Shown in pieces: positions 1,749-33,550 of a stretch of DNA of 33,551 bases. The position numbers were made by a program, and so were the translations under genes. The notes beneath the pieces are model-generated. The model ran no database searches, was not told where the DNA came from, and saw nothing but the letters and a program-made list of their open reading frames with translations. Numbering within the stretch: the stretch's first letter is position 1; every line of letters begins with the position of its first letter. Source of the stretch: a virus. The stretch is from the IMG/VR virus record IMGVR_UViG_3300042380_000408, positions 1 to 33,551 of that record, one strand, 5' to 3'.

Positions 1749-2252
1749 ATGGGCCGCCGCGGCCGCCTGCCTGATCCCAACTCGAAGCGATCCCAGGCCG
1801 CCGTGGCCCGGGCTCGGCAGATCGGAGCCGCGGCCCCGAAGCCTGCCGCGAAACCTGAGTCCACTCAACTTGACCCGCCGCCGTCCGTGGCGAAGGTGCC
1901 GACCGCTCTCGGCTTCTGGGAACGCAACGCCCCGACGCTGATCGCCGACGGCAGGCTGACGAGCGACAGGATCGACGCGTTCGCGATCTGCTGCCGCCTC
2001 CATGCCGACATCGAGCAGCTCGCCGACCAGGTCTACACCGAGGGCTGGATCACCGCGACCGACAAGGGCCAGGCGGCGAGCCCGGTGGCGAAGCTGCTCC
2101 GCGACGCCCGCCGCGACTTCGTCGCCCTGGCCCGAGACTTCGGGCTGACGGCGGCCGCCGCCGCCCGCCTCCCCCAGGAGCCGATCCATGCCGGCGAGAA
2201 AGAAGCCGACGAAGAAGACCAGGTCCTCGCGAAGCTCTCGATCCGCGGCTGA
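1749..2252 (+). CDS. terS: Terminase small subunit, P27 family
   Basis: A 167-residue protein that starts M-G-R-R-G-R-L-P, the typical opening of P27-type small terminases. A Pro/Ala-rich linker follows (residues 25-50), then a helical body with F-W...A-P-x-L near residue 60 and a D-x-x-A-F-x-x-C-C segment. It would recognise phage DNA and load the large subunit during packaging. An ATG at 1737 is in frame, but GGAGAAG at 1739-1745 serves the ATG at 1749 and the family pattern starts there. Its 3' end overlaps the large-subunit gene by 65 bp, implying coupled translation. Confidence 0.85.
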   Translation: MGRRGRLPDPNSKRSQAAVARARQIGAAAPKPAAKPESTQLDPPPSVAKVPTALGFWERNAPTLIADGRLTSDRIDAFAICCRLHADIEQLADQVYTEGWITATDKGQAASPVAKLLRDARRDFVALARDFGLTAAAAARLPQEPIHAGEKEADEEDQVLAKLSIRG

Positions 2253-3828
2253 CCCGAAGAACCGGCCGGAGTACGTGCCGGGGTATCAGTGGGACGAGGC
2301 CGCGGCGAACGCGCCGGTCCAGTTCATCGAAACGCTCTGCCGCCATCCCGACGAGCGCGGCGGCGAGCCGCAGCGGATCAAGCTGGTCGAGTGGCAGCGG
2401 GACCGCGTGCTACGGACGCTGTTCGGCTGGCGTCGAGCCGACGGCCGCCTTCGGTTCCGGCGGGCCGGCATCTTCGTCCCGAAGAAGAACCGGAAGTCGT
2501 CGCTGATGTCGCAGCTCGCCCAGTACATCGCGACCTGTCACGCCCCAGCCCAGGACGTGTTCCTCGCCGCGAACGACCGCCTCCAGGCTCGCACGATGTA
2601 CCGCATGGTGCGGCAGAGCGTTGAGGCGAGCCCGAAGCTCTCGCAGCTCCTCGAGGTCGTCGACTCACGTAGCATCATCCGCAACCGAGACACCGGGAAG
2701 GAAATCCGCTGCCTGTCCTCCGACTCGTGGCGGAACGAAGGCCTGAACGGTTCAGTGATCCTGGACGAGATCCACAGCTTCCGCACGCCCGACCTGGTCG
2801 ACGCGTTGATCTACGCGACCCGCGGCACGGCCAACGGCCTCGTGATCTCGATCTCAACGGCAGGCTCCGACCGGAACGGCATCGGCTGGCGGTGGTGGCA
2901 GGACTGCGAGCTGGTGATCAAAGACCCGAAGACCAACCCGACATTTTACGGGCTGATCTACGCGGCCTCCGAGGATGACGACTTCTCCGACCCGAAGGTC
3001 TGGCGGAAGGCGAACCCGTCGATGGGCGTCGCGTTCCCCGAGGACGAGTTCGCGGCCGACTACCAGGACGCGACGACCGACCCGCGGAAGATGTCGAAGT
3101 TCCTCCGCTACTCGCTCAACGTCTGGCAGGCCGCCGATTCTCGGTGGTTCGTCGGGAACATCGACTGGCCCTCGTGCAGCTCCGGCCCGCTCGCCCCGCC
3201 AGCCGGCCGGCCGTGCTGGGTGGGCGTCGACCTGGCGAGCAATCTCGACATGACGGCGGCCGCGTTCGTGTTCAAGGAATCCGACGGCAGCTACTCGGTC
3301 GAGTGGCGCTACTGGGTGCCACGCGAGACGGTGGCCGACCGCGTCCGTGAGGGCATCCCCTACGATGCCTGGATTCGCGACGGATGGGTGACGGTCACGG
3401 ACGGTTACCGGCTCGATCACGAGGCGGTCGCCCGCGACATTCTGGCCTATGGTGAGCGGTGCCCGATCCGGGCCGTCGGCGTCGACCCGTGGCAAGCCGG
3501 TGCCCTGGAGACGCTGCTCCAGAAGGAGGGCGTCACAGTCAAGGACATCCCGCAGCGGACGGGCTACCTCAACGCGCCTTGTAAGCTGCTCGAGGCCCTG
3601 GTCGTCGAGAAGCGGCTCCGGCACGGCGGCAACCCGGTCGCGACGTGGAACGCGAACAATGTCTGTTGCTATACCGATGCCACTGGCATGATCAAACCGG
3701 ACAAGGCGAAGTCGACGGAGAAGATCGACGGCATCGCGGCCCTCGTGAACGCCCTGGCCCTGGCGAGCACGGACGACGAGGACGGCGGGCCGGCCAACGT
3801 GGACGACTACAAGATCCGCGTCATCTGA
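2188..3828 (+). CDS. terL: Terminase large subunit (HK97/phage-type ATPase-nuclease)
   Basis: A 546-residue packaging motor of normal family length. The N-terminal ATPase has a Walker A-like P-K-K-N-R-K-S-S (98-105), a Walker B V-I-L-D-E-I-H (190-196) with catalytic Glu194, and S-I-S-T-A-G as a coupling motif (221-226). The C-terminal RNase H-like nuclease shows the expected acidic residues in G-V-D-L-A-S (Asp348), V-G-V-D-P-W (Asp432) and K-I-D-G-I (Asp514). It translocates DNA into proheads at the portal and cuts it. AGGAG lies before the start. The basic N terminus (first 20 residues) looks disordered. Confidence 0.95.
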   Translation: MPARKKPTKKTRSSRSSRSAADPKNRPEYVPGYQWDEAAANAPVQFIETLCRHPDERGGEPQRIKLVEWQRDRVLRTLFGWRRADGRLRFRRAGIFVPKKNRKSSLMSQLAQYIATCHAPAQDVFLAANDRLQARTMYRMVRQSVEASPKLSQLLEVVDSRSIIRNRDTGKEIRCLSSDSWRNEGLNGSVILDEIHSFRTPDLVDALIYATRGTANGLVISISTAGSDRNGIGWRWWQDCELVIKDPKTNPTFYGLIYAASEDDDFSDPKVWRKANPSMGVAFPEDEFAADYQDATTDPRKMSKFLRYSLNVWQAADSRWFVGNIDWPSCSSGPLAPPAGRPCWVGVDLASNLDMTAAAFVFKESDGSYSVEWRYWVPRETVADRVREGIPYDAWIRDGWVTVTDGYRLDHEAVARDILAYGERCPIRAVGVDPWQAGALETLLQKEGVTVKDIPQRTGYLNAPCKLLEALVVEKRLRHGGNPVATWNANNVCCYTDATGMIKPDKAKSTEKIDGIAALVNALALASTDDEDGGPANVDDYKIRVI

Positions 3829-10490: not shown

Positions 10491-10524
10491 GGCCGGGGGG
10501 CCGCAAGGATGCAGCCCCCCGGCC
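10491..10524 (+). terminator. Strong hairpin after major capsid gene
   Basis: GGCCGGGGGGC at 10491-10501 pairs perfectly with GCCCCCCGGCC at 10514-10524, an 11-bp all-GC stem with a 12-base loop. No T run follows, so it is either a leaky or factor-dependent terminator or a 3' stabiliser. Either way it would raise the dose of capsid mRNA relative to the connector genes. It ends 21 bp before the next start. Confidence 0.6.
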
Positions 10525-21239: not shown

Positions 21240-22139
21240 CTACGCCGTTTTGGCCGGCGGATCCTCGTCGGGCTTGAAGATCCGCGGCATCGCCTGCCAG
21301 GCCTTCGGCCGGCGGGCGTCGACCACGCGAGGGTCGAGGTAGCTCCGGCGAGTGATCCGGTCTGACGAGTGGCCCAGGAACGCGGTCGCGTCGAGGCCGG
21401 CCGCCGCCAGGTGCGACGCGGTCGACCGCCGAAGGGCGTGAAACTGGACCTCGCGGCCGTCCCCGAGGCCGGCCCGCCTCGTGATCGTCTTCCATCGCTT
21501 GCGCAGGGCCGTCCCGGAGGCCATCCACCAGAAGACCGTCGGCCCCGTGTGGGCCGTGACGCGGTCCACCAGGTCCGATGCCTCCGGGGACAGCTCGTAC
21601 ACCCGCTCCTGGCGGCGGCCCTTCCTGACGCCCGCAGGGACCGTCAGCGTGGGCCGGTTCCAACAATGCCGCGGCGTCGAGAGGATCGCGTTGATCCGCT
21701 CGCCGGTCTCCAGGCCGACGGCGACGAGGGCCGGGAAGAACACGCTCGCCGGCACTGGGCCGACCCAGCCGCTCGCCTGCCGGGCTGAGGCGGCGAGCCG
21801 GGCCAGCTCGTCGGTCGTGAACGCCCGCGGCACACGCTCCGGGATCAGCTCCGGCGCGACGGCCGGCCGCAGCTTTACGAGCCCGCGGGCCTGGGCGAAG
21901 TTCCACAGGGCTAGGATGCCGCTCCGCTCACGGGCTACGGAGTTTGGCGACAGCTTCTGGCCGCGGGCCGTGAGCCACTGCGAGACGACCAGGTCGTCGA
22001 GATCCTCGAGCAGGGCCGGCCGGCCGAGCCACCGGCTGAACTGGGTGACGGCATGCTTCAGGAGCCGGACACGTTCTTGAGATCGGCCCCGGAGCCGGAG
22101 CGGCACGTAGATAGTTTCGAGAAAGGCGCTGAGTGTCAT
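21240..22139 (-). CDS. int: Tyrosine integrase
   Basis: A 299-residue phage integrase, the only gene clearly on the - strand. The N-terminal half is a helical arm and core-binding region (residues 1-100). The catalytic half has E-T-G-E-R-I-N (Arg148), a Lys-containing beta hairpin (Lys173), H-A-L-R-R (His234, Arg237), L-G-H-S-S (His257) and S-Y-L-D-P-R with nucleophile Tyr267. It would recombine attP with a host site. A TTG 15 bp upstream is in frame, but GGAGG at 22149-22153 (complement) fits the ATG at 22139. It is divergent from a small HTH gene. Confidence 0.93.
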   Translation of the reverse strand: MTLSAFLETIYVPLRLRGRSQERVRLLKHAVTQFSRWLGRPALLEDLDDLVVSQWLTARGQKLSPNSVARERSGILALWNFAQARGLVKLRPAVAPELIPERVPRAFTTDELARLAASARQASGWVGPVPASVFFPALVAVGLETGERINAILSTPRHCWNRPTLTVPAGVRKGRRQERVYELSPEASDLVDRVTAHTGPTVFWWMASGTALRKRWKTITRRAGLGDGREVQFHALRRSTASHLAAAGLDATAFLGHSSDRITRRSYLDPRVVDARRPKAWQAMPRIFKPDEDPPAKTA

Positions 22140-22154
22140 GGCGTGATCCTCCAA

Positions 22155-22161
22155 CTAGGGG
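22155..22161 (-). promoter_or_regulatory. CCCCTAG element upstream of integrase
   Basis: On the - strand CCCCTAG lies just upstream of the integrase GGAGG. The same seven bases appear on the + strand at 22383-22389 in the same place before the divergent gene. The mirror arrangement suggests a shared promoter or regulator element. Confidence 0.35.
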
Positions 22162-22203
22162 ATAGGTCACGCTTCCATGCGGTGTCGCCCCTCCATGGCC
22201 GGA

Positions 22204-22229
22204 TTCCGGTTTTTCCGCCGGTTCCGGTT
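22204..22229. repeat. Paired TTCCGGTT repeats, possible integrase arm sites
   Basis: TTCCGGTT occurs at 22204-22211 and again at 22222-22229, 18 bp apart, between integrase and the HTH gene. Short direct repeats beside an integrase gene are typical of arm-type binding sites at attP. This is inference; no core site is identified. Confidence 0.3.
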
Positions 22230-22282
22230 GGCCGCCGCACGGCTGGTCGGGAAAGTTGCGTCCCGTCCCCGCCACTGCCAAA

Positions 22283-22309
22283 GGTTTCAATCCCGACGGG
22301 ATCGAAACC
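22283..22309. promoter_or_regulatory. 27-bp dyad between integrase and HTH gene
   Basis: GGTTTCAATCCCG (22283-22295) and CGGGATCGAAACC (22297-22309) are inverted repeats matching at 12 of 13 positions around one central base. GCCAAAG flanks it on both sides (22277-22283 and 22314-22320). It could be an operator for a dimeric repressor or the attP core region. The GTTTC...GAAAC ends also resemble a CRISPR repeat; only one copy is present in the window. Confidence 0.6.
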
Positions 22310-22328
22310 GGCGGCCAAAGAAGGCTAC

Positions 22329-22360
22329 GCAGCCCGCATGCCGCAAGGCAAGCGGGCTGC
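22329..22360 (+). other. Strong structured hairpin with GNRA-type loop
   Basis: GCAGCCCGC (22329-22337) pairs with GCGGGCTGC (22352-22360), and inside it GCC pairs with GGC around a GCAA tetraloop (22343-22346). The design (9-bp stem, small symmetric bulge, GNRA loop) looks like structured RNA in the leader of the HTH gene. No T run follows, so termination is unlikely. It could be a leader control element, a small RNA or part of attP. Confidence 0.5.
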
Positions 22361-22382
22361 GGGCTTGAATGGAGCAGCGTCG

Positions 22383-22389
22383 CCCCTAG
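22383..22389 (+). promoter_or_regulatory. CCCCTAG element upstream of HTH gene
   Basis: Mirror copy of 22155-22161, located five bases before the GGAGG of the HTH gene. See the integrase-side element. Confidence 0.35.
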
Positions 22390-22406
22390 CATCGGAGGCT
22401 ATGGAC

Positions 22407-22646
22407 ATGGTGATCGAGCCGAAGACGGGCCGGAAGCTGGTCTCGCCCCGCGAGGCCGCGAAGGTGTTCGGGTGCGACGACAGCTACTTCCGGAAGCTCG
22501 CCCTGTCTGGCGAGCTACACCGCGTGGTGGAATCCCCGCGCCGGGTCTTCTACTATCTCGACGAAGTGGAGCGCCTGAGCAAGGAGAAGGCCCGGGCCAG
22601 GACCAAGCGCGGCGGGCGGCCCCGGAAGGGATCCACGGCGGCCTGA
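22407..22646 (+). CDS. Small HTH protein, excisionase-like
   Basis: A 79-residue basic protein with a MerR/excisionase-type helix-turn-helix: L-V-S-P-R-E-A-A-K-V-F-G (about 12-23), a recognition helix S-Y-F-R-K-L-A, then L-H-R-V-V-E...V-F-Y-Y-L-D-E-V-E-R-L as wing and helix, and a basic tail (G-G-R-P-R-K-G). Position beside the divergent integrase suggests an excisionase or a switch regulator. ATGs at 22401 and 22407 are in frame; GGAGG at 22394-22398 fits 22407 better. It could bind the 27-bp dyad upstream. Confidence 0.75.
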   Translation: MVIEPKTGRKLVSPREAAKVFGCDDSYFRKLALSGELHRVVESPRRVFYYLDEVERLSKEKARARTKRGGRPRKGSTAA

Positions 22647-23453: not shown

Positions 23454-23680
23454 GCATGGGAGTCGTCGATGGGGTGATTCTGGCCCTACTGTCCGCCGCC
23501 GTGACGCTGGCCGTCGTCGCGGTCGCGGCCGTCGGCCTGGTCGCCATGAAGATTCATGAGGAGCGGCGAGGCACGGATTGCCCTGCCGCAGGATGCCGCC
23601 GGAGGCGGCCTGGGAAGGGATGCACCATCGAGCTGCGGGGGGCGGAGACCGCCCGCGGCGAAACTAACTGGAGGGAATGA
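23450..23680 (+). CDS. Single-pass membrane protein with Cys-rich tail
   Basis: A 76-residue protein with one long hydrophobic helix (about 6-33: V-D-G-V-I-L-A-L-L-S-A-A-V...) and a basic cytoplasmic-type tail containing C-P-A-A-G-C and G-K-G-C. ATGs at 23444, 23450 and 23456 are in frame; GGGGAG at 23436-23441 best fits 23450, which also overlaps the previous stop. Role unknown; early phage membrane proteins can be superinfection-exclusion factors, but nothing specific shows this. Confidence 0.5.
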   Translation: MSMGVVDGVILALLSAAVTLAVVAVAAVGLVAMKIHEERRGTDCPAAGCRRRRPGKGCTIELRGAETARGETNWRE

Positions 23681-23682
23681 GC

Positions 23683-24633
23683 ATGGCTCTGAAGATCACG
23701 CGCGGCCGTCAGTGGTCGCCGGTTCGGTTCACGGTCTACGGGACCGAGGGGATCGGGAAGTCGACGCTGGCGGCGAGGTTTCCGAATCCGCTGATCCTCG
23801 ACACCGAAGACGGCACGCGGCATCTCGACGTGGCCCGCGTCCAGTGCCAGGACTGGGCAACGCTCGAGGGAGCGATGCACGACCTGGCCCGCGACGCCCA
23901 GGGCTTCGAGACCGTGGTGATCGACTCGGCCGACTGGGCTGAGCGGTTGATGATCGACCAGATCCTCCGCTCGACCGGGAAGAAGTCGATCGAGGACTTC
24001 GGGTTCGGCAAGGGCTACACGCTTGTCATGGAGCGGATGGCGAAGTTCCTGGCCCTGGCTGACTCGCTCGTGGCCCGCGGCCTCCACGTTGGGCTTGTCG
24101 CCCACGCGAAGGTTCAGCGGACCAGCCCGCCCGACATGCAGGACGGGTTTGATCGCTACGAGCTGAAGCTCACGAAGCAAACCGCCCCGATCGTGAAGGA
24201 GTGGTCGGACCTCCTTCTGTTCTGCACCTACCGGACGAACATCGTCGAGGGTGCGGACGGGCGGAAGAAGGCCAGCGGCGGGAAGGAGCGGATCATGTAC
24301 GCGGAGCGGTCCGCGGCCTGGGACGCGAAGAACCGATTCGGCCTGCCGGCCTCGATGCCGATGTCGATCGACGCCCTGGCCTCGATCTTCGGCGAGTCGG
24401 CCAAGCCGGCCACGCCCAAGGGCAAGCGGGCCGGGGCCGAGCTGGTCGAGTACGTCCGTCCGCTGATCGCGGCGGCCCCGACCGTCAAGGATCTCGGCAA
24501 GCTCGTCGACGGGATCGACACCGCCCTCTCCGAGGGCCGGCTGTCAGACGACGAGTGGAGCGACCTCACCGACGCGGCCAACGCCCGGCACGACGAGATC
24601 GAGCCGAAGGAGGCCGCCGATGCCGTGGCATGA
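23683..24633 (+). CDS. Sak4-like RecA-fold ATPase (recombination)
   Basis: A 316-residue RecA-fold ATPase of the AAA_24/Sak4 type. It has Walker A G-T-E-G-I-G-K-S-T (20-28), L-I-L-D-T-E-D-G-T (37-45) and Walker B T-V-V-I-D-S-A-D-W (77-85), then V-A-H-A-K-V-Q as a sensor region. Sak4 proteins promote single-strand annealing or strand exchange in phage recombination and usually work with an SSB, which is encoded two genes on. GGAGGG at 23670-23675 suits the ATG at 23683 rather than 23677. The C-terminal 80 residues are a helical extension. Confidence 0.87.
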   Translation: MALKITRGRQWSPVRFTVYGTEGIGKSTLAARFPNPLILDTEDGTRHLDVARVQCQDWATLEGAMHDLARDAQGFETVVIDSADWAERLMIDQILRSTGKKSIEDFGFGKGYTLVMERMAKFLALADSLVARGLHVGLVAHAKVQRTSPPDMQDGFDRYELKLTKQTAPIVKEWSDLLLFCTYRTNIVEGADGRKKASGGKERIMYAERSAAWDAKNRFGLPASMPMSIDALASIFGESAKPATPKGKRAGAELVEYVRPLIAAAPTVKDLGKLVDGIDTALSEGRLSDDEWSDLTDAANARHDEIEPKEAADAVA

Positions 24634-31286: not shown

Positions 31287-33550
31287 ATCCCGGCATCCTG
31301 ACCAGCGGCTACCGGCCGCCGCCGATGCCATATGGCTTGCTGGGCCTGCCCTCTAGGGGGTTCGATCCGCGTTCGATTGTTGGTCTTGGCGGCTGGTGGG
31401 ACGCGATGGACTCCAGCACGCTCACGACCGGAACTGGCGTGAGCGAGTGGAGAGACAAGAGCAGGTTTGGGCAGGCGTTTTCGCAGGCGACTAGAGGGAG
31501 CCAGCCCACGCTGACGGCATCGGCCATTTCTGGCAGGCCGGGGGTCACATTTAGTAGCGGTAGATTTTTGAACCTTGGTTCGCAAACGATTGGCGGAAAC
31601 AACTTGGTTTCCGCGCCGGGAAATCCTTGGTCGATCTACATCGTTTGTCGCAGCACAGACAGCAGCGCGCTTGTGAAAACCCTGTTTGGCAAGGGGCAGA
31701 ATCAGGTACAGCTCGCGCAAAATACTGCCGGGTCGCTTGTTCAGGCCAACGGGGCAGCCCCGACCTCTGTTCCGGCATTTCCAGCGAACGTCAACGGCTT
31801 GTTTAGTTTTGACTACAACGGGTCGTTTGTGCAGATGCGGTTCAACGACGGCATCTCCACCACCGCCACGCCGACAAACACAACTAACGAAGCCGTCAAC
31901 ATCGCCCTTGGAATGCGGAACGCATCGTCGCCTTTCCAGCATTTCGTCGGCCACATTGGCGAAGTGCTGTTTTACAATCGGTCGCTCAATGCCTCCGAAC
32001 GGTCGTCGGTGGTGAGTTACTTGAGCAGCAAGTGGGGGGTTGCCATTCCGCAATACTCACCCCCTACCTATGCCGACGCCGACGCCAACGCCTACATCAC
32101 CCGCGTTGAGTTCGCGGACACACTGGCATTGGAAACGGCTACCCGCGATGCGATCAACGATTTCATCGTCGGATGCAAGGCAGACGGCATCTGGCCTGCG
32201 ATCAAGGCCAGTTGCATCCTCTGCGGCGCTCGCACGCTTTCCGGTGCGTTGACGCCGCTGGTTGGTGCGGCACCGACGAACAGCAACTTCGTCGGTGCCG
32301 ACTACAACCGCAAGACGGGGCTGGTCGGCAACGGTTCAATAAAAAACCTAAACACTGGTCGGGCGGAAAATGCTGATCCGCAAAATGCCCACCACATCGC
32401 TGCGCATGTGTCCTCCATTGGGTCGGGCGAAATCGTCCGAAACGGCAGTAATACCACAATAATCACCACGACGGTCACCCGCAGTCGCAGCAGTTCGTCC
32501 GACGCATACACAGCCGTCGCGGGCTTCATTGGCGTGTCTAGGTCGGCGTCGAATGCTTACTTGCGGCGCAATGGAGGCAGCACCACCAGCGTGGCAAGTG
32601 TGTCGCAAGGTTCCGTTGCCGATAGCTTTTTAGTTGCGACCGGCACCTCAAGGGTGGCATTTTACAGCATCGGAGAGTCGATTAATCTCGCGCTACTGGA
32701 CAGCCGCGTGACCACGATCTCCAGCGCCATCTCAACCGCCATCGTCCCGCAGGTCGCCAGCGCCGACGCGCAGGATTGGCTCAACCGCGTCTACGACAAC
32801 GGCGGCACCGTATCCGCGACGACTGCCGCTGCGGTCAACGACTTTTGCAACGCAATCAACGCCGCTGGCATCCGCGACCGCTTTGCAAGACTCAATCTGT
32901 TCTGCGGCGGCAACCTAGCGGCCTGCCGCACGCCGCTCTACAGAGCAAAGTCGCTGGCCGGTACGCAACTTGGCAACACCATCGACACCAACGTCGGCCC
33001 GTTCGTTGACGCGGACTATGTGGAGGCTGGCGGTAGTGGCGGATTGAAGGGCAACGGCAGCAGCAAATACCTGTCTACTGGCCTGCTGGTTGGCGACGCG
33101 ATGCCCTCTGGTAATGGTCATATGTCCGTTTATGCCGCGAGCGCTCAATCGGCTGGCAGCGGAAATTTCCGGTATCATCTAGGCACACCCCAAATCTACC
33201 TGTTCGCAAGGGACGGCGGCCCAAACGCGGGACTCTTATGGGTCAGTGGCTCCGCTGCAATTTTGACATCAGCGGCAGACATCACTGGTCATTTAGTCGG
33301 AACTAATTCCGCCAGCAATGCGCGCGAGTATTTCCGAAACGGCACCTCAATCGGATCAAACTCTGTAACCACCTCCCCCCCGACCGCCACTTCTGAGTTC
33401 ATGGTTTTTGGCAGGTCATCTCAAGCCAACGTCCTGTTTGACGGACGGATGGCGGCGTATTCGATTGGTGAGCCTATGACTGCATCGCAAGCGACTGCTT
33501 ATTACACAGCGATGCAAGCATTTCAGACAGCTTTAGGCAGAAACGTATGA
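31283..33550 (+). CDS. Large LamG-like tail fibre/adhesin
   Basis: A 755-residue protein starting at GTG (GTGA overlap). Residues 30-255 form a concanavalin/LamG-like lectin domain: G-G-W-W-D-A-M-D-S-S, W-R-D-K-S, R-P-G-V-T-F, then F-V-G-H-I-G-E-V-L-F-Y-N-R-S-L. Two related units follow, with A-I-N-D-F-I-V-G-C and A-V-N-D-F-C-N-A-I openings (about 285 and 520), each leading to V-G-N-G-S or K-G-N-G-S and a lectin-like half ending I-G-E. It would bind the host surface. Its last codons are duplicated at 1-126 because the circle was cut here. Base composition is less GC-rich than the head genes. Confidence 0.78.
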   Translation: MNPGILTSGYRPPPMPYGLLGLPSRGFDPRSIVGLGGWWDAMDSSTLTTGTGVSEWRDKSRFGQAFSQATRGSQPTLTASAISGRPGVTFSSGRFLNLGSQTIGGNNLVSAPGNPWSIYIVCRSTDSSALVKTLFGKGQNQVQLAQNTAGSLVQANGAAPTSVPAFPANVNGLFSFDYNGSFVQMRFNDGISTTATPTNTTNEAVNIALGMRNASSPFQHFVGHIGEVLFYNRSLNASERSSVVSYLSSKWGVAIPQYSPPTYADADANAYITRVEFADTLALETATRDAINDFIVGCKADGIWPAIKASCILCGARTLSGALTPLVGAAPTNSNFVGADYNRKTGLVGNGSIKNLNTGRAENADPQNAHHIAAHVSSIGSGEIVRNGSNTTIITTTVTRSRSSSSDAYTAVAGFIGVSRSASNAYLRRNGGSTTSVASVSQGSVADSFLVATGTSRVAFYSIGESINLALLDSRVTTISSAISTAIVPQVASADAQDWLNRVYDNGGTVSATTAAAVNDFCNAINAAGIRDRFARLNLFCGGNLAACRTPLYRAKSLAGTQLGNTIDTNVGPFVDADYVEAGGSGGLKGNGSSKYLSTGLLVGDAMPSGNGHMSVYAASAQSAGSGNFRYHLGTPQIYLFARDGGPNAGLLWVSGSAAILTSAADITGHLVGTNSASNAREYFRNGTSIGSNSVTTSPPTATSEFMVFGRSSQANVLFDGRMAAYSIGEPMTASQATAYYTAMQAFQTALGRNV

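Follow-up and report, generated by a model that had tools for sequence, protein, structure and literature searches.

A covarying hairpin beside a probable tRNA-fMet attachment core in phages of freshwater planctomycetes

The region between the integrase and HTH genes

The window, by which we mean the whole stretch of 33,551 nucleotides analyzed here, is a tailed-phage contig, with terL at 2188-3828 along with portal, major head protein and tape measure genes in its left part. No Rfam family matched anywhere in it. The region studied, 22140-22400, separates the genes of a tyrosine integrase and a small HTH protein, and contains or adjoins the following features:

21240-22139, minus strand: tyrosine integrase, 299 aa (Pfam Phage_integrase, E = 4e-9; phrog_1, E = 7e-24)
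22204-22248, strand unassigned: candidate Int arm region with a putative role, comprising three 9-bp units (TTCCGGTTT TTCCGCCGG TTCCGGTTG) and a conserved block, GGTTGGCCGCCGCACGGCTGGTC
22265-22276, plus strand: probable attP core, GTCCCCGCCACT, matching host tRNA-fMet from the 3' strand of its acceptor through base 73 (22274) to the second base of the trailer
22283-22309, plus strand: dyad, proposed phage-borne tRNA-fMet trailer hairpin (from covariation, spacer variation and fold)
22328-22361, plus strand: second hairpin, without a U-tract, directly before promoter-like sequence of the HTH gene
22401-22646, plus strand: small HTH protein, possible excisionase or regulator
23677-24633: Sak4-like annealing protein

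The integrase gene adjoins the presumed attachment site and reads away from it. Versions of this integrase that are 81-99% identical occur in about 50 IMG/VR contigs, and a comparison with the phage record collection gave no match; other relatives have the HTH gene in common and carry a different integrase. The HTH protein is weakly similar to excisionase-type HTH proteins (phrog_66, excisionase and transcriptional regulator, E = 4e-5), with a slightly better score to phrog_57 (E = 1e-5), and a start at 22407 would be better suited to the GGAGG preceding it.

All repeats named in a first-pass annotation of this DNA are present in 22140-22400. The 27-bp dyad at 22283-22309 has 13-nt arms, matching at 12 of 13 positions, around a 1-nt center, and copies of GCCAAAG flank it at 22277-22283 and 22314-22320. 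The hairpin with an inner GCC-GCAA-GGC, described there as 9 bp, is larger (22328-22361), its 15-nt arms being 93% complementary; several relatives retain it with altered sequence. The paired repeats, TTCCGGTT at 22204-22211 and 22222-22229, are by eye the outer pair of the three 9-bp units, which are candidate arm-type sites for Int. The window has four dyads with at least 12 of 13 matches and a gap of at most 8, and two of these lie inside the 261 bp; six dinucleotide shuffles yielded 0, 0, 1, 0, 0 and 1. The other two lie in coding regions (10491-10524 and 32268-32300). When folded as RNA, 22275-22370 reaches -57.2 kcal/mol (z = -6.9; 0 of 200 shuffles).

A pattern scan for the int-side flank returned 88 stretches. 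These gave 46-52 distinct attP variants, the total varying with the way the regions were cut. In their alignments the int-side flank is conserved as far as GTTNNRATCC, and the right flank often comes from unrelated phage modules. The candidate arm region shares the int-side conservation in most relatives. Within it, relatives retain the CGG/CGG/CGA rhythm of 22204-22230. Immediately upstream of int, GCGTGA...TCACGC (22141-22172) surrounds the int ribosome-binding site (CCTCC on the plus strand) and appears in relatives as GTGTGA...TCACAC, a matched change; it could act as an operator or as a hairpin that masks the SD.

The probable attachment core and its tRNA target

The box CCCCGCCAYT (22267-22276), in most cases with TCCTGT or TCCTGC before it, is present in each of the 49 attP variants compared, a count to be read knowing that the retrieval pattern itself included the box. 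In an independent search, 39 of 72 host-family genomes had a T-loop with the box behind it, and a reversed control gave one match. All examined matches to the full GTTCGAATCCTxxCCCCGCCA are tRNA-Met (CAT) genes. Given their body, GTGGAGCAGCCCGGTAGCTCG...GGCTCATAACC, and their mismatched 1-72 pair, we take them to encode the initiator tRNA-fMet. The longest exact words shared by the 49 variants and tRNA-fMet 3' ends measure 12-20 nt, as opposed to mostly 6-7 nt, and once 10, for reversed-tRNA controls. The window's own attP has 12 nt of exact identity only, or 16 with one mismatch, and lies at the lower end of a range that extends to 20 nt in its relatives. The shared words and the box together place the predicted crossover within 22265-22276, outside the dyad. 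By these comparisons 22140-22400 is most likely the attachment region, with insertion at the 3' end of the host tRNA-fMet gene, and we infer that the window's own phage would integrate there. The dyad itself had been considered as the attP core, and was dropped once the tRNA-fMet box was seen beside it. Also rejected as attB was tRNA-Glu, at which GGTTCGAATCCCGTCGG occurs in four of the 72 genomes; the phage would not restore its acceptor end.

In relatives that share the HTH gene and have another integrase, the slot between int and the HTH gene is occupied by CATCGGTCTACGGAACCGAAGGTTG..GGTTCGAGCCC..C.GGGTGTA, which corresponds to the 3' half of tRNA-Arg(ACG). This sequence matched 58 loci in bacterial genomes, nearly all in planctomycete MAGs and many of them freshwater. 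One, a 40-kb contig of a Planctomycetaceae MAG (JAIXPT010000413.1), contains a prophage of ~34 kb with the gene order of the window (terL 54%, tape measure 57% and integrase 28% identical). An intact tRNA-Arg(ACG) lies at one end of it, and at the other, beside the integrase, the 3' half of this tRNA occurs again. The tRNA-Arg half in the relatives' slot and this prophage together identify the slot as attP for the phage group, and the matches of the tRNA-Arg(ACG) 3' end identify the hosts, by sequence comparison, as freshwater planctomycetes of one family. Across the group, integrase and target appear to have been exchanged together, the targets being tRNA-fMet, tRNA-Arg(ACG) and, in some relatives, a tmRNA-like 3' end (GGTTCGACTCCCCTCGCCTCCA, judged by sequence).

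The region had been annotated at first pass as a lysogeny switch and attP. The second half of that reading holds for the region, with the core beside the dyad instead of in it. As to the first half, no lysis-lysogeny repressor was identified among the ORFs searched, a set that took in only some of the small ones, and no promoter was called at 22140-22400. The direct repeat expected of attL and attR was found in the collinear relative with the other integrase, and none was seen for the window's integrase type. The genomes searched contained no lysogen with that type, the best chromosomal relative being 39% identical. Two planctomycete chromosomal integrases about 36% identical (G248:C1 and G337:C61) have a tRNA-3'-end-like sequence upstream, then a strong U-tract terminator, the layout expected of an attR beside a displaced tRNA terminator. 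Another relative, 38% identical, in a host-family genome (G148:C36:11742-12605), has one in-frame TGA.

A covarying hairpin directly after the tRNA end

The dyad begins 9 nt past tRNA base 73, and the RNA fold lengthens its stem to 22275-22314 by pairing CUGCC with GGCGG, so that it reaches the first trailer base. Among 18 distinct relatives, a set picked for showing the dyad and hence biased in favor of this count, the 11-bp stem has 90.9% standard pairs, and three pairs are changed on both sides. Double-changed cells number 11 versus 4.2 in shuffles (0 of 500), and the covariation score is 0.145 versus 0.063 (0 of 500); it drops off when the stem is slid. For 46 variants, the left arm matches its own right flank at 7.9 of 10 positions on average and swapped flanks at 7.3 (maximum of 500 swaps, 7.6). 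The spacer measures 5, 6, 7 or 8 nt in relatives, with pairing retained. About one third of the variants lack the exact dyad and have other hairpins from the same starting place, or none that is clear. Stems of at least 10 bp just after the box occur in 38% of 52 phage trailers versus 0.6% of 833 control segments. In phages that use tRNA-Arg this position is mostly taken by another hairpin, unrelated to the dyad, which suggests that a hairpin is tied to the slot and not to one integrase. For the variable hairpin on the right, an integron-like attC was considered and rejected, the flanks being ordinary phage genes.

The tRNA-fMet genes of the host planctomycetes offer a parallel: each of the 28 examined trailers contains a hairpin that begins 0-11 nt past the tRNA, often with a second one behind it, as in the phage. 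The host hairpin is in some cases a U-tract terminator and in the others a small stem with a terminator after it; the phage hairpins, in contrast, have no U-tract. Of the 52 phage trailers, 48 contain 0-2 T among the 8 nt that follow the hairpin; about half of the host trailers contain at least 4. This difference bears on whether the dyad is itself a terminator, one that works without a U-tract on tRNA-fMet read-through or another rightward transcript. Its position is that of host tRNA-fMet terminators, and its fold with the second hairpin is very stable. Yet the GC hairpin at 22283-22309 is not followed by a U-tract and no terminator-like site was called there on the plus strand, and we regard this explanation as quite unlikely.

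An alternative is that the symmetry reflects dimer binding by a protein, either at inverted core- or arm-type sites of Int, of the lox or dif kind, or at an operator for the HTH protein. The inverted 11-bp arms indeed recall lox, dif and att cores, and the left arm, GTTNNRATCC, is conserved in every captured attP variant, even next to an unrelated right flank, although in part by selection, since the arm was in the retrieval pattern. A rigid dimer site with fixed spacing should not allow a spacer of 5-8 nt with pairing kept; moreover, the tRNA-matching box lies outside the dyad, and phages with other integrases carry unrelated hairpins in the same place. Covarying arms with a variable spacer are more consistent with an RNA hairpin than with a rigid protein site, so that we consider the protein-site explanation improbable, though the left arm, being kept wherever the integrase is kept, may also serve Int as DNA. 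Finally, the ends GTTTC...GAAAC had been read at first pass as a possible solitary CRISPR repeat, carried by the phage and interfering with CRISPR in the host. These ends occur in the window phage and two near-identical contigs; in most relatives they become GTTGC/GCAAC, GTTCC/GGAAC or GTTGG/CCAAC, the changes on one side compensated on the other. Searching 22283-22309 in 72 host-family genomes returned no array within 3 mismatches and only four single matches, and we consider this origin extremely improbable.

A possible replacement trailer for tRNA-fMet

We therefore favor, as the probable explanation of the whole, an attP in the tRNA-fMet end with the dyad then serving as a tRNA trailer hairpin. 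Int would recombine the CCCCGCCAYT box with the tRNA-fMet gene of the host at its 3' end, with the predicted attL junction joining tRNA-fMet (GTTCGAATCCTGTCCCCGCCACT) to CTGCCAAAGGTTTCAATCC. The tRNA would be rebuilt, its own trailer and terminator would be shifted to the far prophage end, and the right side of the phage, dyad first, would be placed downstream. We infer that the dyad hairpin would then be transcribed with tRNA-fMet and function as its replacement trailer hairpin. Its proposed role is in tRNA 3' processing, by guiding or protecting 3' maturation, and/or, with the second hairpin, in damping read-through into the HTH gene. Should the HTH protein be an excisionase, such read-through would threaten lysogeny.

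The nearest known arrangements are the attP sites at tRNA 3' ends described for tyrosine-integrase phages and islands (Williams 2002, as summarized in PMC2951348 and PMC8371274), for which the general rule is that int lies beside attP, attP carries the tRNA 3' end and the tRNA is rebuilt on integration (PMC8371274). The window shares the position of int and the tRNA 3' end in attP, and differs in its very short identity (12-20 nt), its tRNA-fMet target, an int divergent from attP, and a covarying hairpin after the tRNA end. Closer to our proposal is ICEKp1 (PMC13023037), whose integration at tRNA-asn displaces the tRNA terminator and whose stem-loops at attL attenuate the transcript that reads through from the tRNA. 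In that element the gene reached by read-through is int, whereas in the window phage it would be the small HTH gene; unlike in ICEKp1, the phage hairpin starts right at the tRNA end. The part of the literature searched yielded no comparable tRNA trailer hairpin in a phage, ICEKp1 being the nearest case.

Insertion at tRNA 3' ends poses a problem in that the tRNA must be rebuilt, yet loses its trailer and terminator; the covarying attP hairpin suggests that some phages bring a replacement trailer. More broadly, and tentatively, planctomycete phages may carry an attP-borne mimic of the host tRNA trailer that keeps processing of the essential initiator tRNA intact after integration and shields an excisionase-like gene from tRNA transcription, a trait gained repeatedly with different integrases and tRNA targets. 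The comparison also links these freshwater phages to a planctomycete family, and supplies an integrase for which a target, tRNA-fMet, is predicted, in bacteria that have few genetic tools.
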